Part shown: in pieces, positions 18,483-37,207 of the stretch
How positions within the stretch are numbered: position 1 is the stretch's first letter
Layout: the number at the start of each line of letters is the position of its first letter
Assembly: GCA_022827905.1 (NCBI GenBank)
Contig: JAJEIQ010000023.1
Location: forward strand, 1-37,540
Length of the DNA: 37,540 bases
From: Pseudomonadales bacterium
GTDB lineage: Bacteria > Pseudomonadota > Gammaproteobacteria > Pseudomonadales > Azotimanducaceae
Direction of reading: 5' to 3'
The notes under the pieces: model-generated
What the model saw: only the letters and a program-made list of their open reading frames with translations
Databases searched by the model: none
Told to the model about the DNA's origin: nothing
Translations under genes and position numbers: made by a program

Positions 18483-19679
18483 CTACAGCACCCCTTCGTT
18501 GATGCTCGTAATCGCCAGAATGATGCCCACCATAATGGTCCCCAAGAAACCGCCGATCAACAGGATCGCCAAGGGCTCCACCAAGTTCAGGAAGCGCTTC
18601 ATCCGCCGACTGCTGTTCTCTTCGTACAGCGTCGCCAGCGAGCGCAGCATTTCCGCCAATTGGCCGGACTGCTCGCCAACCCGAACCAGATTGTAACCCG
18701 TCGCCGTCAAGGCGTCCCTTCGCTCCAAGGCATCCGACAGCGCCGCCCCGCTGCGCACGTCACCGGCGGCCTGCTCCAGCCCGCTGCGCCGCCGCGAGAT
18801 GCGGATGCCGCGCAGCGCCAGGCCGAGGGCATCCATGAGCTCGACCCGGCTGGTAAGCATGGCGCTCATCACCGACGCCCAACGGGCGGTGTCGGCTTCG
18901 GAAAACCAATCCTTAAGCACCGGCAGCAGCGCCAGAAAGTCGTATAGGCGCTGCCGGAAGGCCGCTTGGCGCAGCAGCAGCACGGTTGCAGCCACCGCGC
19001 CGCCGGCAACGGCGAACACCAAGGCGCTGTTGTCGTTGAACCACAGCCCGGTGCGGAGGATGACCTCGGCGAGCAGCGGCAGGTCGTTGCCCTCGTCCAG
19101 CAGATTGGAAAACCGCGGCACGACGAAGACGAAGACGAACATCACCGCGGCCAGGCCGGCCACGATCAGGATGGCCGGATAGGCGAGCGCACCCCGGAAA
19201 TCGGCGGCCACCTTGTTGTCGTATTCAAGTTGGGAGACGGCTTGGCGCAAGGATTCCGCCAGACGGCCGCTGAGCTCGCCGGCCTCCACGAGTTGCAGGA
19301 CGTAGTCCGGCAGCGGCAGATTGCAGGCGCGCAGGGCCGACAGGAAGTTCTCGCCCCGGCCAAGCCGGGTGGCCATGTTGGCAAAGGCCTCCGCCAAGGC
19401 GGGATGGTGGCTGCCGCGGCCTTGGGCCAGCACTGCATCGCTCAAGGAGACGCCCGCCTCCAGCAAGGTCGCCAACTCATGCAGGGCGACCACGACTTCC
19501 TGGGCGCTCAACCGCCGCCGCAAAAGGCCGGCGGAAGGCGCGGCGCGCTCGCTCACGTCCACCACGGTCTGGCCGTTGACGTTCAGCCGGCGCACCGCCT
19601 CCACCGCCGATTCCGCCGCCATGCTGCCTTTATGGAGGTTGCCCTGGGCGTCGGCGTACTCGTAGTCAAACTCAGGCAT
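18483..19679 (-). CDS. gspF: Type II secretion inner-membrane protein GspF
   Basis: A 398-residue polytopic platform protein. It has the N-terminal FDYEYADAQGNLHKGSMAAES region, two repeated cytoplasmic helical domains (starting about residues 60 and 265, LHELATLLEAGVSLSDAV and WASVMSAMLTSRVELMDALG) and three membrane helices (VAGLAAVMFVFVFVVP, VFAVAGGAVAATVLLL, and LAILLIGGFLGTIMVGIILA). Length and duplication are typical. GspF connects the GspE ATPase to pseudopilus assembly. Its start lies 8 nt downstream of the gspE stop. Confidence 0.95.
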   Translation of the reverse strand: MPEFDYEYADAQGNLHKGSMAAESAVEAVRRLNVNGQTVVDVSERAAPSAGLLRRRLSAQEVVVALHELATLLEAGVSLSDAVLAQGRGSHHPALAEAFANMATRLGRGENFLSALRACNLPLPDYVLQLVEAGELSGRLAESLRQAVSQLEYDNKVAADFRGALAYPAILIVAGLAAVMFVFVFVVPRFSNLLDEGNDLPLLAEVILRTGLWFNDNSALVFAVAGGAVAATVLLLRQAAFRQRLYDFLALLPVLKDWFSEADTARWASVMSAMLTSRVELMDALGLALRGIRISRRRSGLEQAAGDVRSGAALSDALERRDALTATGYNLVRVGEQSGQLAEMLRSLATLYEENSSRRMKRFLNLVEPLAILLIGGFLGTIMVGIILAITSINEGVL

Positions 19680-19687
19680 TGGGGACG

Positions 19688-21406
19688 CTAAGTCAAGGTC
19701 AGCCGAGTGACCTCATCCAATGTGGTGCGGCCTTGGGAGGCTTTGATAAGGCCGTCCTGAAACAGCGTGCGGCAGCCTTGGGAGCGGGCGAAGCGCTTGA
19801 GGTCATTGAGGGTGGCGCCGGCCACGATCATGTCCTGCATCTCACTGCTCATGGGCACGAGTTCGTAAATGCCGATGCGGCCCCGGTAGCCGGTCTGCTG
19901 GCAGGCATCGCAACCCACCGCGCGCACCCACTGCTCACCAAGCATCCCCTCGGGCATGGCGGCGAGTTGGTCGGCCAGGTAGCTCGGCGGCGCAACCGGC
20001 TCCGCGCATCGTGAGCAGGGCTTGCGCACGAGGCGCTGCGCCTGCACGCCGCGAATGGGAGAGGCCACCAAAAACGGCTCGACCCCCATGTCGATCAGCC
20101 GGGTGAAGCTGGAGATGGCGTCGTTGGTGTGCACCGTGGAGAGCACGATGTGACCGGTAAGCGCTGACTGAATGGCAATTTCTGCCGTTTCCAAATCGCG
20201 GATTTCGCCGATCATGATGGTGTCGGGGTCTTGGCGCAGGATGGCGCGCAAGGCCCGGGCGAAGGTGTAGCCAATCTCCGCATGGGTTTGAATCTGGGTG
20301 ATGTTGGGCATCTGGTACTCGACCGGATCCTCAACGGTGATGATCTTGCGAACCCCGTCGTCGGACTCCTCCAAGGCGGCGTAGAGCGTGGTGGACTTGC
20401 CGGAACCGGTGGGGCCAGTGACCAGGATGATGCCGTTGCTGGCGCCGAGCCAGCCGCGGAACAGTTCCAAGTGATCCGGCTCCATGCCCAGGTTCTTGAG
20501 CTTCAAGTCCTCCCGCTCCTTAGGCAGCAGCCGCAGCACCACCGACTCCCCGAAGGCGCAGGGCACGGTGGAGACCCGCACGTCCATTTCCCGGCCGGCG
20601 ATGCGGGCAGTGATGCGCCCATCCTGGGGCAGGCGGCGTTCGGCGATGTCGATGCCGGAGATGAGCTTGATGCGCGAAGCGACTGCTGGGAAGCGCTCAA
20701 TGGGCTGGGTGAGCCGGGTGTGCAGCACCCCATCGACCCGCAGGCGCACGGCGAAATTCTCCTCGCTCGGCTCCACGTGGATGTCGGACGCCTCCATGTC
20801 CACGGCTTGGGAAAGCAGGTTGTTGACCAGCTCGATCACCGGCGCCTCTTCCGCCATCTCGCGCAATTGCTTGGCGTTGTCGCCGGCGAACAGGCTCTCG
20901 ATGGCCTGCTCCTTGCGCACGAAGTCCAGCAGCCGGTCGATCTGGTGGTTGGCGGCGAGATGAAAGGCGACCGGCTCGTCGGGATAGAAATAGTCGAGCG
21001 CCTCGAACAGGGCGTCATCGAGCACGTCCCGGGCGATGCACTGCAGTTCATCGTTTACGCGCCACAGCAGCACGGCGCGGTCGAGGAACCACTCCAGCTT
21101 GATGGGCGAGGCCGCCATGAACTGGTACACCTCCAAGCTGTCCGGCAGCTCCTCGCTGTGGCGCAGGTAGGTGAGGCCCGAACGTTCGGCGAGAATTTGC
21201 AGCAGCAGGTCTTCGGAGATGGCGCCCACCCGCACCAGCAGTGCCCAAAGGCGGCCGCCGGCGGCCTGCTGGATCTGCGCTGCCCGATCCAGGTCGTCGG
21301 CCTGAACATGGCCGTTTTCGACCAAGTAGGCACCGAGCTCCCGTTCCGAAACCATGAGTTCCTGAACCTTGCGGCGTTCAACGATGTCGGCGGCGGTCTG
21401 CGGCAT
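19688..21406 (-). CDS. gspE: Type II secretion ATPase GspE
   Basis: A 572-residue AAA-type traffic ATPase. Visible parts: N-terminal MshEN-like domain (ELGAYLVENGHVQADDLDRA), the N2 region ASDIHVEPSEENFAVRLRVD, Walker A GPTGSGKS (about 331-338), Asp box TVEDPVEYQ, Walker B IMIGEIRDLETAEIA, a His box VLSTVHTNDA, and the tetracysteine zinc element CSRC...CDACQQTGYRGR. It powers pseudopilus assembly from the cytoplasm. It is the first gene of the minus-strand gsp run and is divergent from htpX across 121 nt, so the operon promoter should be there. No gspC/gspD precedes it. Confidence 0.95.
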   Translation of the reverse strand: MPQTAADIVERRKVQELMVSERELGAYLVENGHVQADDLDRAAQIQQAAGGRLWALLVRVGAISEDLLLQILAERSGLTYLRHSEELPDSLEVYQFMAASPIKLEWFLDRAVLLWRVNDELQCIARDVLDDALFEALDYFYPDEPVAFHLAANHQIDRLLDFVRKEQAIESLFAGDNAKQLREMAEEAPVIELVNNLLSQAVDMEASDIHVEPSEENFAVRLRVDGVLHTRLTQPIERFPAVASRIKLISGIDIAERRLPQDGRITARIAGREMDVRVSTVPCAFGESVVLRLLPKEREDLKLKNLGMEPDHLELFRGWLGASNGIILVTGPTGSGKSTTLYAALEESDDGVRKIITVEDPVEYQMPNITQIQTHAEIGYTFARALRAILRQDPDTIMIGEIRDLETAEIAIQSALTGHIVLSTVHTNDAISSFTRLIDMGVEPFLVASPIRGVQAQRLVRKPCSRCAEPVAPPSYLADQLAAMPEGMLGEQWVRAVGCDACQQTGYRGRIGIYELVPMSSEMQDMIVAGATLNDLKRFARSQGCRTLFQDGLIKASQGRTTLDEVTRLTLT

Positions 21407-24243: not shown

Positions 24244-24262
24244 CGCTATCGAAATGATAGCG
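24244..24262. promoter_or_regulatory. Perfect palindrome, likely operator of the toxin-antitoxin pair
   Basis: CGCTATC-GAAAT-GATAGCG has perfect 7-bp arms around a 5-bp centre and ends 18 nt before the antitoxin ATG. TTTCCA (24219-24224) and TACGCT (24242-24247), 17 bp apart, could be the -35 and -10, placing the palindrome over the -10. This fits autoregulation by the ribbon-helix-helix antitoxin, as known for FitAB/VapBC loci. Confidence 0.65.
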
Positions 24263-24280
24263 CTTTGCAAGGAGCCCGCC

Positions 24281-24529
24281 ATGGCAACAATCAATGTTCG
24301 GCTGCTCGCCGACGATGTCGTACGCGACCTAAAGCTCCGTGCGGCTCGCAACAACCGCTCGCTTGAAGGCGAGGTCCGTCACATCCTGGTGGACACTGTC
24401 AGAGACGACCTGTCGGCCAAGAGAAACGCGTTCCTTGCCCGAACTGCCGAGTTGCGCTGCGCGTCCGAGGGACGCGCCCAAACGCCCTCCGAGCTTCTGA
24501 TTCGCGAAGACCGCGATCACGGACACTGA
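24281..24529 (+). CDS. FitA-like ribbon-helix-helix antitoxin
   Basis: An 82-residue protein. ATG at 24281 is preceded by AAGGAG at 7-nt spacing, which decides against the upstream in-frame start. N-terminal ribbon-helix-helix: MATINVRLLADDVVRDLKLRAA, then RNNRSLEGEVRHIL, the Arc/FitA/Phd-VapB pattern in which the first strand binds DNA. The C-terminal tail (TPSELLIREDRDHGH) is the part expected to wrap the toxin. It is followed 6 nt later by a PIN-domain toxin, and a perfect palindrome sits just upstream. Confidence 0.85.
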   Translation: MATINVRLLADDVVRDLKLRAARNNRSLEGEVRHILVDTVRDDLSAKRNAFLARTAELRCASEGRAQTPSELLIREDRDHGH

Positions 24530-24535
24530 CCAACC

Positions 24536-24982
24536 GTGACCTTGGTAGTTGACGCGAGCGTCGCGGTCAAATGGCTGGTCGTGGAGGATGGCTCAACTGA
24601 CGCACGTGGTCTCATCGAACGGGGGGAGGAACTTCACGCCCCTCGCCTGCTCGCCTCTGAAGTAGCCAATGCGGTTTGGCGGAAGGTCCGACTCGGCCAA
24701 GTTGACCGCCACGCTGGCCCTCAGCTCATCGCTACCATGCAGGACATGCCGATCCGTTGGCACTCCGACGAGACGCTCTGCGCCGATGCGGCCCGACTCG
24801 CCATTACTCTCGACCGGCCCGTTTACGATTTGGTGTATCTCGCCTTGGCGCAGCGCCTAAGTGCTCGCGTCATAACCGCTGACCAGCGCTTCGCTAACGC
24901 GCTTGCCACGACCAACCATGGCGACCTCGTCGTAACGTTATCTGAATTGTCCTCGCGTCACTCAGCGGGCGTGTCGGGCTGA
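24536..24982 (+). CDS. VapC/FitB-like PIN-domain toxin
   Basis: A 148-residue PIN-domain ribonuclease starting at GTG. The four acidic residues that hold Mg2+ are visible: Asp6 (LVVDASVAVKW), Glu42 (LLASEVANAVW), Asp98 (PVYDLVYLALA) and Asp116 (ITADQRFANA). These toxins cleave tRNA or rRNA when the antitoxin is lost. All catalytic residues are intact, so the toxin should be active. Its 3' end overlaps the convergent giant membrane-protein gene tail-to-tail by 25 nt, leaving no room for a separate terminator. Confidence 0.9.
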   Translation: MTLVVDASVAVKWLVVEDGSTDARGLIERGEELHAPRLLASEVANAVWRKVRLGQVDRHAGPQLIATMQDMPIRWHSDETLCADAARLAITLDRPVYDLVYLALAQRLSARVITADQRFANALATTNHGDLVVTLSELSSRHSAGVSG

Positions 24983-27900
24983 TAGGGCTGACGCCTGTGC
25001 CACAAGCCATCCATCGAGAAGCACTGCCAGACCCAAGGCAGCCAGCGCAGCAGGGCGAAGCTCAGCCAGAGTGCCCACGCCAGAATCAGCGCCTTGTAGA
25101 TCCATAGCGGCATGGACCAAGCGGATGCCACCGGCAGCACCGACTCGCTGTGGCTGGCAAACCAATTCAGGCTGTTGCCCGCGGAGTTGGCGCCGGTGAC
25201 GTGCATGTTCGGGGTTCCCAGCAACCCGTCCGGCAAGGTCGCCACAAGCGCGGCCAAGGCGACTAAGGTCAGCACCGCGATGAGCACCTGAACGCCGTTG
25301 AATAGATCGGTCGGCAGATCGGCACGCCAGCGCTTGCGTGCTCCACAGGCCAGCAGCCAGGCGGCGACCAAGGCGAGCACCGGCCAACTGTAGGTGCTCA
25401 GCCCCAGGCCCAGCAACAGCCAGTGCCGGGTTCGCAAAGGCGTGAGGCCAACTCGCCCAAGCGCCAGGGCGACGAGGATTAGGGCAGCGAGCTCCGACCA
25501 ATACAGTACCGCGGGACCCAGGGGTGGGCCTTGGGTGGCCAGAAGCCAGCGGCTGTCCGGCAGACGCATTTGCAGGCTGATGTTGCCGGCCGGCGCACCC
25601 AGATCAACCGCAGGGGTCCCGGTTTGCAGGCCGGTCTCACCGTAGGTGCGCCAACCCAAATGAATGTCGTGCTCTCCCGGCAGGATGGGCAGGCTCAAAG
25701 CGCCGCCGTTGGCTTGAAACGGCTCGTGGTCCCCATCAATTTGCAAGCTGAGAACCTCCGCGCCCTCCGGCAGACGCACGGTGTGCTGCCCGCCTTGGGT
25801 GCTGCGGTAGTTCAGGACCAAGCTCGAAGTGCTCGACTGCTTGCCCTTGGCGACATCAAGAACCACGGCATCGAAAGCCAGCGTTGGTCCGGCGCTCGGT
25901 TCCGGCCGGGTCACATCGATCTTCAGGCTCTCCCCAGGGCGCGGGTGAAATTCGGCGACGTGCCACTCCGAAGCGCCATCCGAATCGATGCTCTCAGGGA
26001 CACCGGTGAACTCGGCGCGCCACGCGCTGCCGACCGCCGCCCGCCAGACTTCCCGCCAAGGTTGCCCGATGGCCGATTCGATCAACAGCGGCGACTGCTG
26101 CGGTAGAACGGACTCCCAGGAAACGCTGTGCTGCGCCGCTGCCATAGAGACTAGCAAACTGTCCCCGTCGCGGGTCAGGCCGGGGGTGGTGACGGATTCG
26201 CCCTCCATCAGCGGGACGTTCAGGGTCAATGCTCCTTCGGCCGGAGCGATGCGGCGCACCTCGGTCGTTACCCGCCAATCAAGGTCAAGTTCCAATGTCC
26301 GCTCGATCTCCACAAAGGTCGGAAAGCGGCTGCTCTCCCAAGTCGGCTGCCCGGAGTCCGAACCCGCCGCCTCGCGCACGCGGGTCAGGTGCAGCGAACC
26401 GGACAACAGCCGCCGATTCTCGATGCCGGCCAATTCCCAGCCGCTGGCGTTCGCCTCAACAGCCCGCGGCACCGCTGGAAAGGGTATTTCCAAGCTGTCG
26501 GCAGCCGACGTGGGACCGCTCACCTCGATGCTGCGGCGACCGGCCCGCACGTGCGCCCAAAGCGTGCCATCCGGCCTGCGCAGCACCTCGCCCGCCGCGG
26601 ACCCACCGAGCAGAACCGCAGCCGGGCGCCAGCCCGCCTCCGATCCCGGCAAGGGAACCGCCACGTCGGCCAGCGCATGCACCTCCAGCCGTATGTTGAC
26701 CGTATCCGCAGTGACGTTGATTCGCGCCGTAACCACTTCCGCACAGCGGGGCGCGCAATCGGGAGGCTCCAGGAGGCGTTCTTGCAGTTCAGTCAAGAGC
26801 TGCGGGTCCGGCAGGTCGGCCTCGGCTGGCGGCGCGCTGGACAGCAACGCGCCCAAGGATGCCGCCATCAGCAAACCGCTGGCCTTGGCGCGGCCGGGCA
26901 GCCATCGCTTCGGGAGGGTCAAGCGGCGCTTGAGCATCGCGGCGGCTAGCACGGCGGCAGAGGCCAGCAGCAGCAACACCTCCAGGAACCGCAGCGCGGT
27001 GACGAGCCAACGGGGCGCGACCACCAGCCGCACGCTCTGGCCAGCGTCCACCGGTCCGCTCCAAGTCAGTTCATGGCGGTTCCAACGCCACGCCGGCATG
27101 CCCGGCCCGGTCTGCACCATCGCATTGGCCAAGGTGCGCTCATAGCTCCGACGGGATGCCGCAGTGACGATGATCTCCTCAATTTCCGGCGCTTCCGACG
27201 CCGGACTGGACAAAGACCTCACCCTCTCCTCCACCCTTGCGGAGTCGCGGGATAAGCTAGGTTCGAATTCAGCAAAAGTCTCCTGCACCCAAGCATCCGG
27301 CTGCGGTTCGAGCTGCGGATAGATGGCGATGCGCAACTGGCCCGCCACAAAGGGCACCAACCATAGGACGAGCGCAACCGCGCTCACCGCCTGATAGACG
27401 AAGGCCGAGCGCCGCAACCGGCCCTCCGGCGCCACGCGCAGCAGGGCAATGGCGATGAGCAGGTTGAGCCACAACCAGGCGGACGCGTCGGCTTCGTGGT
27501 AGCTGAGGCCAACCGCAGCCAAGGCAACCACGCCGGCCATTGGCCCAAGCAGGCGCCAAGCGCCCAGGGTGATGATCGAGATCAGGAAGAAATCCAGCAG
27601 CCGCCACTGGCTCACCCAACTGCCGCGGGCAAGATCGGCGCCAGGCGCCGCCAACAGCTTGTAGCCCGGCGGCAGGTTCAGGCCGATGCCCACGGCGTCA
27701 AAGCGCGTGTTCCAGCCCGTGACCGGCATCCGGCCACCCCGCTCGACGCCGGCCAGCGATCGCATCCAGACATCTGGATGCCGCAGCTCGACGCCGGTCT
27801 GACCCTCTTCCACGCCCTCGGTGACCAGCAGGTGGTCGTTCCAGTCACGGGCACTCAGGAGCCGGTACGGCGGGGCCATGTCCAGCCGCCAGCCGCGGCG

Positions 27901-29022
27901 CATCCTGCCGCTGACCTCGTCGGCGGCCAAAAGGCCCGCCCCCTCGAAGTCCAGCCACATTTCACGGTCGAGCGTCAATTCGTTGTCAGCAGCACCGATG
28001 CCGCGGCTGCGTTCCGTGATGAGCAGCCGTTCCCCGGGACGCATGCGGAACGCGGCCAACTGCCGCCAGTCTATTGGCACGCCAACCTGCTCGGGCTGCA
28101 CGGTTGCCGGGCCTTCGGCTTGCGTCACCCGCTGGCGAACGTTCGGCCGGTAGCTCCAGATCTCGCTGTCCGGAAGGTTGTCTTCGCCCGCATCCAATCC
28201 GATGGCATCAAGCGCATCCCCGGCCCTTGCCGCCACTTCAATGCGCCACTCACCCGGCCGGACCTGTAGGCGCAGTTTGCCGTCTGATTCGAACCGGGCA
28301 GGCAGTTCGGCATCGAGCGCCAGCGGCACGAAACCCTCTGGCAACAGCGGGCCAAACAGTTCCTCACGAACCTCGCCGGACACGTCCACGAATAGGACGG
28401 TGGTCAGGCGCGTCGGCACATCGTCTTCGACCAATCGATAGATTTCCGTGCGCACGGCATTGCGTTGCGGGCGCTCCGCTTGCGCCTCGCCGAGAAAAAC
28501 CCCCTCCGCGGTCCGCGCGGGACGCGCGACCGGGCGCCCATCCACCCGAAGCGACAACAGCCCGCTGGGCGCCGGCAACGCCAAGACCCCCGGCCGCTCC
28601 GCCCACGCAAAGCGTCCGGACACCCGGTGCCGGCCTGGGCCAAGCCACAAACTGGGCGTGCCGCCGCGCAGCACCACCCGCACCGGCCGGTCGTTCGCGG
28701 TCACGCCTTCCGGCCAATGCGCCGCGTTGCCGGGCAGCGGCAGCCACTGTTCGCCGCCGTACAGCGTCCAGGCCTGATCGAACCGAGCCCCGTCCGAATC
28801 GACCCTCAGTTCAAGCTCCCCGGGCCAAGCGCAGACGAAGTCGGCTTCCTGAGACGCGCTGCGGTCAAACAAGAACGGGCATTGGCGATAGGCTTTGTCC
28901 TTGAGCACCCATTGCTGCCAGTCGCGCAACGTTTCCGGCACGGCCACTTCGGCCCCATGGACCGGGCACCACGCAAGCCAACCCAGCAATAGAAGCCATC
29001 GAAGCTGTTGAACATTGCCCAT
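24958..29022 (-). CDS. Giant exported multi-TM protein with internal duplication, unknown function
   Basis: About 1354 residues from ATG at 29022, where a Sec signal begins (MGNVQQLRWLLLLGWLAW...VHG); the open frame extends 42 codons upstream. Layout: signal; beta-rich extracytoplasmic region to about 470 with two Cys (about 50 and 65); roughly four helices (about 470-600); a loop with EIEEIIVTAASRR (613-625); one helix (about 670-697); a signal-like hydrophobic segment (about 712-733); a second beta-rich region starting with CAPRC (756-760); and about five helices from 1165 to near the end. The two beta-rich regions look like copies: Cys pair, then WLPLPG or AVPLPG, then SLWLGPGRHRVSG or LWAHVRAGRRSIEVSG. 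I recognise no family. Downstream it converges on the toxin gene; upstream it is divergent from the Rieske gene. Confidence 0.8.
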   Translation of the reverse strand: MGNVQQLRWLLLLGWLAWCPVHGAEVAVPETLRDWQQWVLKDKAYRQCPFLFDRSASQEADFVCAWPGELELRVDSDGARFDQAWTLYGGEQWLPLPGNAAHWPEGVTANDRPVRVVLRGGTPSLWLGPGRHRVSGRFAWAERPGVLALPAPSGLLSLRVDGRPVARPARTAEGVFLGEAQAERPQRNAVRTEIYRLVEDDVPTRLTTVLFVDVSGEVREELFGPLLPEGFVPLALDAELPARFESDGKLRLQVRPGEWRIEVAARAGDALDAIGLDAGEDNLPDSEIWSYRPNVRQRVTQAEGPATVQPEQVGVPIDWRQLAAFRMRPGERLLITERSRGIGAADNELTLDREMWLDFEGAGLLAADEVSGRMRRGWRLDMAPPYRLLSARDWNDHLLVTEGVEEGQTGVELRHPDVWMRSLAGVERGGRMPVTGWNTRFDAVGIGLNLPPGYKLLAAPGADLARGSWVSQWRLLDFFLISIITLGAWRLLGPMAGVVALAAVGLSYHEADASAWLWLNLLIAIALLRVAPEGRLRRSAFVYQAVSAVALVLWLVPFVAGQLRIAIYPQLEPQPDAWVQETFAEFEPSLSRDSARVEERVRSLSSPASEAPEIEEIIVTAASRRSYERTLANAMVQTGPGMPAWRWNRHELTWSGPVDAGQSVRLVVAPRWLVTALRFLEVLLLLASAAVLAAAMLKRRLTLPKRWLPGRAKASGLLMAASLGALLSSAPPAEADLPDPQLLTELQERLLEPPDCAPRCAEVVTARINVTADTVNIRLEVHALADVAVPLPGSEAGWRPAAVLLGGSAAGEVLRRPDGTLWAHVRAGRRSIEVSGPTSAADSLEIPFPAVPRAVEANASGWELAGIENRRLLSGSLHLTRVREAAGSDSGQPTWESSRFPTFVEIERTLELDLDWRVTTEVRRIAPAEGALTLNVPLMEGESVTTPGLTRDGDSLLVSMAAAQHSVSWESVLPQQSPLLIESAIGQPWREVWRAAVGSAWRAEFTGVPESIDSDGASEWHVAEFHPRPGESLKIDVTRPEPSAGPTLAFDAVVLDVAKGKQSSTSSLVLNYRSTQGGQHTVRLPEGAEVLSLQIDGDHEPFQANGGALSLPILPGEHDIHLGWRTYGETGLQTGTPAVDLGAPAGNISLQMRLPDSRWLLATQGPPLGPAVLYWSELAALILVALALGRVGLTPLRTRHWLLLGLGLSTYSWPVLALVAAWLLACGARKRWRADLPTDLFNGVQVLIAVLTLVALAALVATLPDGLLGTPNMHVTGANSAGNSLNWFASHSESVLPVASAWSMPLWIYKALILAWALWLSFALLRWLPWVWQCFSMDGLWHRRQPYQPDTPAE

Positions 29023-29162
29023 CCCGGCATCTTCACATTCTTCCCCTCGGTAGTAAACGCTTCGGCGCAGCGGCTCGGGGCGTCCCGCATTCTCCTTCCT
29101 CGAAAGCACCCAGACAATGTGAAACAATCGACTCTTTGCCCAACGCATCGGGAGGCTGCGGC

Positions 29163-34600: not shown

Positions 34601-34754
34601 CGGCATCGTGCTGGTGGCCGGCATGATGCTCGGCACCCTGTTCACCCTGTTCGTGCTGCCAAGCATTTACTGCCTGCTGGCGGCGGAGCGGCACAAGGAA
34701 ACCCAGACAGCGGATGTCGGCATTCGACGCAATCGAGTCAAAGCCAATGCCTGA
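31611..34754 (+). CDS. RND multidrug efflux pump, HAE1 family permease
   Basis: About 1047 residues from GTG at 31611, preceded by AAGGGG and overlapping the adaptor stop; the in-frame ATG at 31584 and TTG-like starts upstream are less well placed. RND hallmarks: N-terminal FVRRPVLAVVISLSLALIG, porter region QYPTIESASLVISTPYVGAS, the helix-4 Asp pair VVDDAIVMVENVARHM used for proton transfer, the central loop, and the helix-10/11 region LVGLISKNAILIVEFARQLQ. Full length with duplicated halves, so it should be functional. Exports hydrophobic or amphipathic compounds with the adaptor. Its end overlaps cobT by 41 nt. Confidence 0.95.
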   Translation: MAVETSLGQGSDANLAVAQERPRFTDLFVRRPVLAVVISLSLALIGVRVAMDMPVQQYPTIESASLVISTPYVGASAEVVQGFITDPIERVAATIPGVDYIASETRAGMSQVTVFLKLNEDSADALAELSTRLGQIRFELPEGAEDPAVEVQRADRPQAGWYLGVKLNERMSRAELTDYLRREVAPQLASIPGVQQVWMGGGRLPAMRIWLDPDRMTMFNVSTADVEAALRRNNIIATIGQTENANQRIDLLVNTSLTQVEEFERMVVREAEGTLIRMRDVARIELGEEEGTDLGRLNQRTTVFLGIFPLPGANEIDIADALYVALDEINATMPAGLELEIGEDVTAYMRKALAEIFTTLAETVILVGLVVVVLMGSVRTALVPLVTIPISLLGAVAAMALMGFSFNLLTVLAIVLSVGLVVDDAIVMVENVARHMREGASRTQAALASSRQLVSPIIAMTLTLATVYAPIGFLSGLTGVLFKEFAFTLAVAVLISGMVALTLSPIMSAWVAPEKGRESTMTRRVNHLFDATRRLYRRLLDGLLANNGPVLFTAVFFALLAAPFFMLSQKELAPTEDQGEINVAITAPPEASLEYTERYMTDVVDAMESLPGSGLMWQMVMNNFAFGGMKFDDFDDRELSTQEMLPMAFGELSEVTGLTAFPILPSALPSAGRFDMEFVVLSSDSAAEMLPYADRLMDRARETGIFLFVDTDLRIDLPQGRFLVDRERVADLGMDLAEVSRQLGAFLSANYVNRFDLDGTAYRVIPMIERTGRPDPDALLDIKLRTPSGEMVPLSALARLDETVAPRVLAKFQQKNAFRIRGGLIPGRTKEEGLQAMEALAAEILPPHYAIDYAGESRQLRQEGSTLLGVLGISLAFVFMALAVQFNSFRDPLVVLLGSAPLALSSALLFTYLDLTTINTYTQIGLITLVGLISKNAILIVEFARQLQAQGLAKLEAIKGAAETRLRPVLMTAGATVMGHMPLVFVTGPGAEARNSIGIVLVAGMMLGTLFTLFVLPSIYCLLAAERHKETQTADVGIRRNRVKANA

Positions 34755-35799
34755 GGCCGCACCCCAAAACGGTGAAGGCGAAGGCGCATCTGCGGACTCG
34801 GCGGCCTTTAGCCGCGCAGTCCAGGACGCCATCGACCAGAAGACCAAGCCGCTCGGCGCCCTCGGCAGGCTGGAGGCCCTTGCCGCACAGATCGCGGAGG
34901 TCCAGCAGACGCTGAAGCCGGTGGCCAAACGCTGCCGGCTGACCGTGTTCGCTGCCGATCACGGCATTGCACAAGCCGGCGTGTCCGCCTTTCCCCAAGA
35001 GGTGACCCGGCAGATGCTGCAGAACTTTCTCGCCGGGGGCGCTGCCGCCAACGTCATGGCCAAGGCGCTCGGGGTGGAATTCGCCTTGGTCGATGCCGGC
35101 GTCGCTGGCACGGCCCTGCGCCGGCCTGGGCTGGTTTCAGTGCGCATCGGCAACGGCACCCGCAACTCGGCCAAGCGGTCCGCGATGTCCGCCGCCCAAT
35201 GCCGCCGCGCATTGCGGGAGGGCCATGCGATCGGTGGCGAGTTAGGCTTCGATGCGGCCTGCTTCGGCGAGATGGGCATTGGCAACACCTCCTCGGCTAG
35301 CCTGGTGGCCGCCAAGCTGCTCGGCTTGCCGGTCGGCCACCTGACCGGCCGCGGCACCGGCTTGGATGATGACGGCCTCGCCCGAAAACGGCGCATCCTG
35401 GAAGCGGCGGCCGCGCGAACGCCAGCCGAATTGGACCCGGAAAGCGCTCTGCGCGAATACGGCGGCTTTGAAACCGTCATGCTGGCCGGCGCCATGATGG
35501 GGGCTGCCGAGGCGGGCAAGCTGATTCTGGTGGACGGCTTTATCGCCACGGTATCCGCCTTGGCTGCGCAGCGCCTGATGCCGGATGTGGCGCGCCACCT
35601 GGTGTTTGCGCACCGCTCCGCCGAACCGGGGCACGGCCTGGTGCTTGGCGCGATGGACGCCGAGCCGTTGCTCGACCTGCAACTGAGACTCGGCGAGGGC
35701 ACCGGCGCCCTGCTCGCCTGGCCCCTCGTGCAGGCCGCCGCCGCGATGCTGCGCGACATGGCGAGCTTCAGTTCCGCCGGAGTCAGCGAGAAGTCGTGA
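34714..35799 (+). CDS. cobT: Nicotinate-nucleotide-dimethylbenzimidazole phosphoribosyltransferase
   Basis: A 361-residue enzyme that activates dimethylbenzimidazole to alpha-ribazole phosphate in lower-ligand assembly of cobalamin. Motifs: AIDQKTKPLGALGRLEALA, VFAADHGIAQAGVSAFPQEV, GEMGIGNTSSASLVAAKL, VDGFIATVSALAAQ, and catalytic Glu in RLGEGTGALLAWPLVQAAA. The ATG at 34714 adds an N-terminal extension and overlaps the RND gene; ATG at 34747 is an alternative and neither has a strong ribosome site. It is coupled to cobS by a GTGA overlap. Confidence 0.95.
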   Translation: MSAFDAIESKPMPEAAPQNGEGEGASADSAAFSRAVQDAIDQKTKPLGALGRLEALAAQIAEVQQTLKPVAKRCRLTVFAADHGIAQAGVSAFPQEVTRQMLQNFLAGGAAANVMAKALGVEFALVDAGVAGTALRRPGLVSVRIGNGTRNSAKRSAMSAAQCRRALREGHAIGGELGFDAACFGEMGIGNTSSASLVAAKLLGLPVGHLTGRGTGLDDDGLARKRRILEAAAARTPAELDPESALREYGGFETVMLAGAMMGAAEAGKLILVDGFIATVSALAAQRLMPDVARHLVFAHRSAEPGHGLVLGAMDAEPLLDLQLRLGEGTGALLAWPLVQAAAAMLRDMASFSSAGVSEKS

Positions 35800-36662
35800 C
35801 GCACGCCGCACCAAGTCGGTGGCGTGCTCTAGCGCAGGAGGAACTGCGCGCCTTCGCCCTTGCCGTGCACTTTCTCACCCGGCTGCCAGCACCGGCTGAA
35901 GAGGCCTACAGCCCCGAACGCCTCGCCGCCTCGGTGCGCCACTATCCCTTGGTCGGCGCGCTGGTCGGCGCGTTCTGCGCAGGCATCTTCTGGTTGGCGG
36001 ACTTTGCCCTGCCCGGCTCCGTCGCCCTGCTGCTTGCCGTGGCAGCGGGGCTGGCGCTCACCGGCGCCATGCACGAGGACGGGCTGGCCGACACCTTTGA
36101 TGGCATCGGCGCGGGGGCCAACCAGGGTGGTGGCCAAGGCACGGACGAAGAGGTCGGCAACCGCAGCGACCTGCAAAGAAGCCGCGTGCTGGAGGTCATG
36201 CGTGACAGCCGCCTTGGGGCCTTCGGCGCTACAGCGCTGGTCATGGCATTGGCGATCAAGGTCACCACCCTCGCCAGCCTCCCGCCACTCGCCGTCTGCG
36301 TCGCGCTGATCGTCGGACATGGCCTGTCCCGGCTGTCCTGCATCGTCCTCATGCAGACCAGCACCTACGTCCGCAAAGCCGGCATCGCCACGCCGATGGC
36401 TGGCCGCTTCGGACGCCTGAGTTGGCTCACGGTCCTGACCACCGCTGCTGTGCTGGTGGGGGGGCTTGTCCTCCTGCTGGGGCCGCTGACCGCCTCCCTC
36501 GCCCTCGCCGGGCTCATTGCCGGGCACACGCTCATGCGGCTCGCGTTTGAGCGCCAACTCGGCGGCTACACCGGCGATACCCTCGGCGCCGTCCAGCAGG
36601 CCAGTGAAATCGGACTCTACCTCGGCGTCTCGGCGAGCGCGGGCGCATGGACATCATTCTAG
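35796..36662 (+). CDS. cobS: Adenosylcobinamide-GDP ribazoletransferase
   Basis: A 288-residue integral membrane enzyme that joins adenosylcobinamide-GDP and alpha-ribazole (or its phosphate) to finish cobalamin. Motifs: FALAVHFLTRLPAP at the N-terminus, ALTGAMHEDGLADTFDGIGAG (metal-binding HxDGLADTxDG, with His-Glu-Asp here), RVLEVMRDSRLGAFGATALV, and several hydrophobic helices. GTG start at 35796 overlaps the cobT stop. A Gly/Gln-rich insertion (NQGGGQGTDEEVGNRSD) follows the metal motif and looks unusual. cobC starts inside its last codons. Confidence 0.95.
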   Translation: MTHAAPSRWRALAQEELRAFALAVHFLTRLPAPAEEAYSPERLAASVRHYPLVGALVGAFCAGIFWLADFALPGSVALLLAVAAGLALTGAMHEDGLADTFDGIGAGANQGGGQGTDEEVGNRSDLQRSRVLEVMRDSRLGAFGATALVMALAIKVTTLASLPPLAVCVALIVGHGLSRLSCIVLMQTSTYVRKAGIATPMAGRFGRLSWLTVLTTAAVLVGGLVLLLGPLTASLALAGLIAGHTLMRLAFERQLGGYTGDTLGAVQQASEIGLYLGVSASAGAWTSF

Positions 36663-37207
36663 TCCGCCACACCCGGCCCAACGTCGCCGAGGGCCTGTGC
36701 TACGGTCGCCTGGACGTCGGGCTGCTCGACACGTTCGCCGATGAAGCCGCGGCGCTGCTTCGCGCCTTGCCCGAGGTGCGGCGGGTGGTCTCCAGCCCCT
36801 TGCTGCGCTGCCGCAAGCTGGCGGAGCACATCGCGACAGCGCGGGCCCTGCCCCTGCAGGTGGACCAACGCCTCACCGAGATGGACTTCGGTGCTTGGGA
36901 AGGACGCCCCTGGTCGGCGCTGCCGGCAGCCGAACTGGATAGCTGGGCAAAAGACTTCATGCACGCGAGACCCCACGGCGGGGAAAGCGTCGCCATGTTG
37001 CAACGCCGGGTTGACCGGGCCCTCGCCGACTGGTCAGCGCGTCAGGAGCCGGCCGCACTCGTTACCCACTCCGGCGTGATCAAGGCGGCCTTCTCAGCCG
37101 GCGGCACTGAAGCACGGGACTTTGCCGTCTCGGTGGATTTTGGTGGCATCATGGCGTTTCCACCCAACCAGCCCAACACACGCAGGGTTGCGCCAAGCAG
37201 GTATTGA
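36647..37207 (+). CDS. cobC: Alpha-ribazole phosphatase (histidine phosphatase family)
   Basis: A 186-residue phosphoglycerate-mutase-type phosphatase. Catalytic His8 in ILVRHTRPN, the second His141 in ALVTHSGVI, Glu78 in TEMDFGAWEG and Arg in VVSSPLLRCRKLAEHI are all present. By context with cobT and cobS it removes the 5' phosphate of alpha-ribazole phosphate or adenosylcobalamin phosphate; without the context a general phosphatase would be possible. It overlaps cobS by 16 nt and is the last gene before the cobalamin riboswitch. Confidence 0.85.
   Translation: MDIILVRHTRPNVAEGLCYGRLDVGLLDTFADEAAALLRALPEVRRVVSSPLLRCRKLAEHIATARALPLQVDQRLTEMDFGAWEGRPWSALPAAELDSWAKDFMHARPHGGESVAMLQRRVDRALADWSARQEPAALVTHSGVIKAAFSAGGTEARDFAVSVDFGGIMAFPPNQPNTRRVAPSRY

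Follow-up and report, generated by a model that had tools for sequence, protein, structure and literature searches.

Within the 37,540-nucleotide stretch analysed here (the window; positions 1 to 37,540 of contig JAJEIQ010000023.1, assembly GCA_022827905.1, from a Pseudomonadales bacterium of the family Azotimanducaceae), a single minus-strand gene at 24958..29022 encodes a giant inner-membrane protein of 1354 amino acids plus stop, built of two tandem units. That it arose long ago, when a unit of about 660 residues was duplicated in tandem, is well supported. The protein belongs to an ancient family without a name, widespread yet patchy in its occurrence, in which a known domain fold is set in a new architecture. 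The open frame extends over 24958-29148 (1396 amino acids), and the start at 29022 gives the 1354-residue product; the gene is present in a single copy in its own genome. Comparison with the copies in two relatives, L002 and L007 (84% and 81% identical), gave dN 0.099 and dS 0.469 for the first and dN 0.108 and dS 0.477 for the second. The resulting dN/dS ratios of about 0.21 and about 0.23 indicate purifying selection, and we therefore regard the gene as real and functional.

Relationship between the two halves

The proposal of the first-pass annotation that the protein consists of duplicated halves was borne out by profile alignment. With profiles drawn from 80 full-length homologs, hhalign aligned residues 24-710 with residues 711-1354 at a probability of 98.9 and an E-value of 1.9e-17, and, as for all the half-against-half values, this E-value applies to one single comparison. 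The score of 152.8 compares with at most 26.3 in 20 column shuffles and 21.3 for a reversed profile, and the whole-half alignment is co-linear and extends into the first helices. For the stretches first singled out as repeated, residues 23-470 and 735-1165, we aligned 24-470 with 735-1165 and obtained a probability of 97.5 and an E-value of 5e-12 from 31 sequences, rising to 98.7 and 2.1e-16 from 80. The repeat is missed when the lone window sequence is compared with itself by blastp (best E 0.44). The cysteine pair, PLPG turn and W/R-rich strands previously claimed as common to both halves are likewise recovered: the pairs C48/C64 and C756/C760 are invariant in all 80 full-length homologs and in 79 of 79 at a second count, and the LPLPG and VPLPG turns and the GPGRHRVSG and RAGRRSIEVSG strands lie in register in the profile alignment. 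Each pair lies close to where its arm begins and is probably disulfide-bonded.

Similarity is also found within each half. A sliding comparison of 70-column segments revealed cross-matches among three places per half, at about 70-137, 235-280 and 368-423 in the N-terminal half and at 766-835, 952-1013 and 1067-1123 in the C-terminal half; pairs of non-equivalent places reach E 1.6e-6, while the best of 137 reversed comparisons is 0.0018. Between equivalent modules hhalign gave 1e-11 for N1-C1, 5.3e-5 for N2-C2 and 1.3e-5 for N3-C3. The non-equivalent pairs C1-C3 (4.6e-7) and N1-C3 (4.3e-6) also match, and thus modules 1 and 3 are related to each other. Taken together, the cross-matches imply that the duplication copied an entire unit of three modules. 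For the membrane parts alone, half against half, the result is no more than suggestive: the score is 24.4 (probability 5.9), the highest of 10 shuffles being 16.9, and smaller pieces of them do no better than shuffles.

Anatomy and fold of the arms

Hydropathy of the 80 homologs and the models of the two halves reproduce the order of parts given in the first-pass annotation, namely signal peptide, beta-rich region, helices, a second signal-like segment, and again a beta-rich region and helices. All coordinates that follow are on the minus strand. Residues 1-23 (28954..29022) form the signal peptide, identified from the sequence and the hydropathy of the homologs. Domain N1 (residues ~56-182; 28477..28857) is a beta sandwich resembling the N-terminal domain of M1 aminopeptidases and holds C64 and the LPLPG turn, with C48 just ahead of it. 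The limits of N2 (~185-340; 28003..28470) and N3 (~345-466; 27625..27990) were set by their homology to C2 and C3, the model being poor in both regions. Hydropathy and model helices place a first set of membrane helices at ~474-568 (27319..27603); a loop at ~569-670 with a QTGPGxPxWxW strand motif, conserved in the alignment consensus, and a further membrane helix at ~673-692, seen by hydropathy, come next (26947..27318). Unit 2 opens with the second signal-like segment (~716-733; 26824..26877), as judged from hydropathy, from a model helix at 12-29 and from genome G550, in which the units are separate genes (see below). Next come C1 (~752-884; 26371..26769), which is M1 N-terminal-domain-like and holds C756/C760 and the VPLPG turn, C2 (~899-1043; 25894..26328), a sandwich matched to the inter-alpha-inhibitor heavy chain, and C3 (~1045-1164; 25531..25890), again M1 N-terminal-domain-like. 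The second helix set (~1171-1325; 25048..25512) includes a GLLGxPDM loop and is supported by hydropathy, charge and model helices.

After the signal peptide, hydropathy of the 80 homologs gives nine membrane peaks and the two half models together contain eleven helices. With eleven helices, both arms would be periplasmic and the C-terminus cytoplasmic. The helix sets carry conserved motifs (GLLGxPDM, PQLE and a W-rich motif).

Each half was modelled separately from input alignments of 7-8 sequences, and the models are of moderate quality. Both independently match the M1-aminopeptidase N-terminal fold, which was matched by N1, C1 and C3. For the C-terminal half, the top structural matches (VIA, Foldseek) are oligosaccharyltransferase (OST) chains, which from their length we take to be ribophorin I/Ost1. 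At the sequence level C3 matches Peptidase_M1_N (PF17900) with an E-value of 2.1e-7 in hhalign, using a profile made from 22 of 30 offered loci. On the basis of the models and of this match, each half appears to comprise three tandem beta sandwiches of the M1-aminopeptidase N-terminal/ribophorin I type followed by several membrane helices. The low confidence with which C3 was modelled counts slightly against this description, and we consider the anatomy as a whole highly probable.

The likeness to M1 aminopeptidases lies in the fold of N1, C1 and C3 and the profile match of C3. Unlike those enzymes, the giant protein has no detected catalytic zinc domain, and its single sequences fall below Pfam detection of PF17900. 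An HExxH zinc motif is found in only one of the 80 homologs (L055, residue 118); as it is not conserved, identity as an M1 peptidase is ruled out. In a moderate model, C2 was matched to the inter-alpha-inhibitor heavy chain and may be a VIT-like sandwich. No module matched a profile of 12 bacterial VIT domains (of 13 offered) in hhalign, the best E-value being 0.018.

The comparison with ribophorin I/Ost1 rests on the models: the two would share tandem extracytoplasmic beta domains of similar fold and a membrane anchor, the non-cytoplasmic side of the giant protein being suggested by its signal peptide and hydropathy. Ost1 has two similar luminal beta-sheet domains and one transmembrane helix, as set out in the part of PMC7226087 drawn on here. 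In contrast to those two domains in all, the giant protein has two arms of three domains each, and in contrast to the one helix it has nine to eleven, in a bacterial protein. Pfam Ribophorin_I (PF04597) matched neither the window protein (E<=1) nor any of 34 diverse family members (E<=0.01).

CreD (PF06123) was considered as a lead from a resemblance in the C-terminal helices; it too has a signal or transmembrane segment, a periplasmic beta-rich part and several transmembrane helices with a loosely similar stretch. It was rejected, as hhalign probabilities were at most 1.5 for the halves, the whole protein and the helix parts against nine CreD proteins (13 loci, 10 read, nine used), and neither the window protein nor the diverse members had a Pfam CreD match.

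Family, distribution and the two-gene form

The window protein has no match in Pfam or NCBIfam at E<=1. Among the 34 diverse members the matches are to one member each, three in Pfam, the best of which (DUF2846, E 6.4e-5) is probably due to chance, and one in NCBIfam (E 0.0058). Searches of PDB sequences returned nothing convincing (best E 0.088 and 0.27), and our literature search found no description of the family. The earlier statement that the protein is of no recognised family therefore stands for the sequence libraries, but the protein is not entirely novel in kind, as its domains appear to have the known fold of the M1 N-terminal/ribophorin I type.

The 80 full-length homologs, the window copy included, are 1324-1495 amino acids long and 25-84% identical to the window copy. 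L106, with an over-extended frame of 1940 amino acids, lies outside this range and was dropped from later profiles, and L003 (969 amino acids, at a contig end) was excluded from the 80-sequence alignment. A first search for relatives found 10, including a copy at 29% identity in a Sulfurovum metagenome-assembled genome, and the family extends over the Pseudomonadota and one Campylobacterota metagenome-assembled genome. At E<=0.001, matches occur in 28 of 398 genomes of a phylum sample (29 of 398 with a profile of the 34 members), in 18 of 145 genomes of an order sample and in 56 of 369 genomes of a class sample, the last including very weak matches in G532 and G794 (E 2-3e-4). For the good-quality genomes of the sampled class the count is 47 of 314, two of the matches being very weak. 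The patchiness of the distribution extends to the window's own family, where one of four other listed genomes has the giant gene. One copy (L125, NC_020548.1 448951-453045, gene AZKH_RS24890), annotated 'hypothetical protein', lies on the 738-kb mobilizable plasmid of Azoarcus sp. KH32C, and its end is overlapped by an isoaspartyl peptidase gene.

In genome G550 (100% complete, 360 contigs) the two units are separate genes, each in the interior of a different contig. Unit 1 (C156:15442-17583, plus strand) encodes 713 amino acids, includes a signal peptide and is closed by a stop codon of its own behind the fifth helix; unit 2 (C207:5852-7909, minus strand) encodes 685 amino acids and has an ATG, a ribosome-binding sequence and a signal peptide of its own. 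No clear trace of the other half was detected by tblastn on either contig. Misassembly is less likely, as it would not readily provide a new signal peptide. The boundary between units derived from the repeat is thus one that is used in nature. The nearest homolog of both genes is the fused L119 of the same family (45.7% and 53.5% identity), and on this sequence comparison it is more likely that G550 split the gene than that it kept an ancestral state. Scanning of seven neighbours revealed no adjacent-gene theme around the two genes. A 170-aa frame with no Pfam match (L210 7928-8440, on C207) shares the strand of the unit-2 gene and stops 18 bases ahead of it.

Half-only matches, 20 stretches of 14 genomes in all with G550 among them, were checked for contig ends. 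The other half-only or piecewise matches end at contig ends in G189, G422, G469, G624, G689, G697, G806, G809 and G861; G741, G546 and G475 have adjacent broken frames on one contig, and G687 proved to be one frame. In G195 only a short part of the C-terminus is left (L038; G195:C92:7452-7676); it contains two in-frame stops, lies about 1 kb from the end of its contig and is perhaps a remnant.

That the gene in the window arose by recent fusion or is an artefact of assembly was suggested by its layout, which with two signal-like segments resembles a pair of joined genes, and by the two genes of G550, yet the probability of this is negligible in view of the 79 further full-length homologs, which keep a single frame down to 25% identity so that the fused form must be old, and of the fused nearest homolog of both G550 genes. 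The part of the first-pass annotation's fusion idea that sees two joined units gains weight from G550.

Gene neighbourhood

In the window, the giant gene diverges from a gene for the alpha subunit of a Rieske ring-hydroxylating enzyme and from a pair of genes for an RND adaptor and permease, and it converges with a FitA-like/PIN pair. The pair occupies 24254-24982, where a gene for a FitA-like ribbon-helix-helix antitoxin is followed by one for a PIN-domain toxin whose frame converges on the giant gene and overlaps its end by about 25 bases. Further away, type II secretion/type IV pilus-like F and E (ATPase) genes lie at 18483-21406 on the minus strand, the same pair being found in L002 and L007, and cobT, cobS and an alpha-ribazole phosphatase gene follow the RND permease in a row at 34714-37207.

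We surveyed 81 loci with crude gene calling and blastp clusters; 85 loci had been clustered, and L009, L010, L011 and L045, which hold only end pieces of the gene, gave no focal member. It had been asked in the first-pass annotation whether homologues travel with Rieske, RND or toxin genes. Counting the window, the Rieske cluster is present in 3 of the 81 loci, the RND adaptor in 4 and an RND permease within a few genes in 6; the full Rieske/RND row recurs only in the close relatives L002 and L007, the latter also having a related FitA/PIN pair downstream. No general neighbour was found in the 81 loci: the most frequent cluster occurs in 11, at scattered places, and no cluster at a fixed place is found in more than 5. 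In 9 loci an ABC-F-type ATPase cluster lies close to the giant gene, in 6 of them within two genes. Scanning of 60 of the 61 adjacent same-strand genes with Pfam and NCBIfam (the 1990-aa gene of L117 is omitted from the tally) gave FGE-sulfatase in 5, M23 peptidase in 5 and HAD in 3, none of them general. The giant protein is therefore encoded without a fixed partner.

Local arrangements do recur. In five loci of one genus (f48/g109; L043, L052, L058, L060 and L063) an M23 endopeptidase-type gene lies upstream and a zinc-ribbon/FGE-sulfatase-type gene downstream, both on the strand of the giant gene; five loci of this genus also have a gene for a LapG-like protease (Peptidase_C93) close by, and five have one for a methyltransferase. 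A HAD-IB phosphatase gene is directly upstream on the same strand in L042, L044, L059 and L061, from four families outside the window's class, and the three of these that were scanned match histidinol-phosphatase in NCBIfam.

Possible role of the tandem arms

Our preferred reading, held tentatively, is that the giant protein is a non-catalytic inner-membrane scaffold or clamp acting in the periplasm. It would be non-enzymatic, given the lack of a detectable catalytic module, and its six domains, in two periplasmic arms, would hold a polypeptide or an envelope-assembly partner beside the membrane, by analogy with ribophorin I, whose M1-like luminal domains lie next to the oligosaccharyltransferase. 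The two units would work together, as one chain in the full-length homologs and possibly as a heterodimer in G550.

The sensor, assembly and transport roles suggested in the first-pass annotation are neither demonstrated nor refuted by the results. A transporter or flippase is possible but unlikely. In such a protein the helix sets would form a substrate path that the six periplasmic domains gate or feed, giving a pseudo-symmetric exporter, and both the conserved motifs of the two helix sets and the duplicated, pseudo-twofold layout are consistent with this. The case for the two helix sets being mutual repeats is not convincing, however; transporter-family matches are limited to one member (Nucleoside_tran, E 0.003), and no ATPase or transporter gene is general in the surveyed loci, the ABC-F-type and RND permease counts given above included. 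We consider an envelope sensor, in which the arms detect a periplasmic signal that the helices relay to a cytoplasmic partner, improbable. The signal peptide, large periplasmic arms and membrane helices would suit it, and the compared stretch includes a sensor-kinase cluster in 7 of the 81 loci, 6 of them from one genus; against this, hydropathy leaves only short cytoplasmic loops and a tail, with no cytoplasmic signalling domain, and no regulator is general beside the gene.

Two further alternatives were weighed by comparing 43 genomes that carry the giant gene with 37 that do not. Participation in exosortase/PEP-CTERM export, or in its polysaccharide system, is very improbable. Exosortase (PF09721, E<=0.001) is found in 27 of 43 carriers against 10 of 37 non-carriers (Fisher p 0.0017, kinship ignored), and in 24 against 9 when only strong matches are counted (p 0.006), but the genomes are unmatched by phylogeny and the non-carriers, all of at least 2.4 Mb, were hand-picked. 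Moreover, 16 carriers lack exosortase, as does the window's own genome (96.8% complete), and where it shares a contig with the giant gene the two are about 38 kb (G401) and about 147 kb (G606) apart, in genomes that are fragmented. Slightly less probable still is an accessory subunit of a protein-glycosylation complex, like ribophorin I in eukaryotes and Asgard archaea. The OST chains among the best structural matches of the C-terminal half favour it, while the lack of a Ribophorin_I match in Pfam does not. STT3-type oligosaccharyltransferase is present in one of the carriers and none of the non-carriers, which disfavours N-glycosylation and makes a subunit of such an enzyme unlikely. Wzy_C (O-antigen ligase/polymerase type) is near-universal (40 of 43 carriers, 33 of 37 non-carriers) and hence uninformative.

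The clamp or scaffold can be given a more specific form, which we regard as an unlikely extension of it: a bacterial family with a periplasmic role like that of ribophorin I in the endoplasmic reticulum, in which the pair of three-domain arms takes hold, at the inner membrane, of polypeptides that have just been exported or of an envelope polymer. If this were true, an M1-like sandwich would have been turned, in Bacteria, into a substrate holder without catalytic activity, independently of ribophorin I or before it.

The family adds a membrane protein of about 1320-1500 residues for which we found neither a Pfam or NCBIfam match nor a published description, and it makes a clean target for study, with one gene and no general partner gene adjoining. 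Its architecture suggests that a bacterial protein without a catalytic domain contains six copies of the M1 N-terminal sandwich, which is best known from a peptidase. In the part of PMC10307638 drawn on here, OST subunits other than STT3 are described as mostly without prokaryotic homologues, with Ost1 and Ost3 found in Asgard archaea and further Asgard subunits added. Given that rarity as described there, ribophorin-I-like tandem domains in bacteria may bear on the origin of this architecture.
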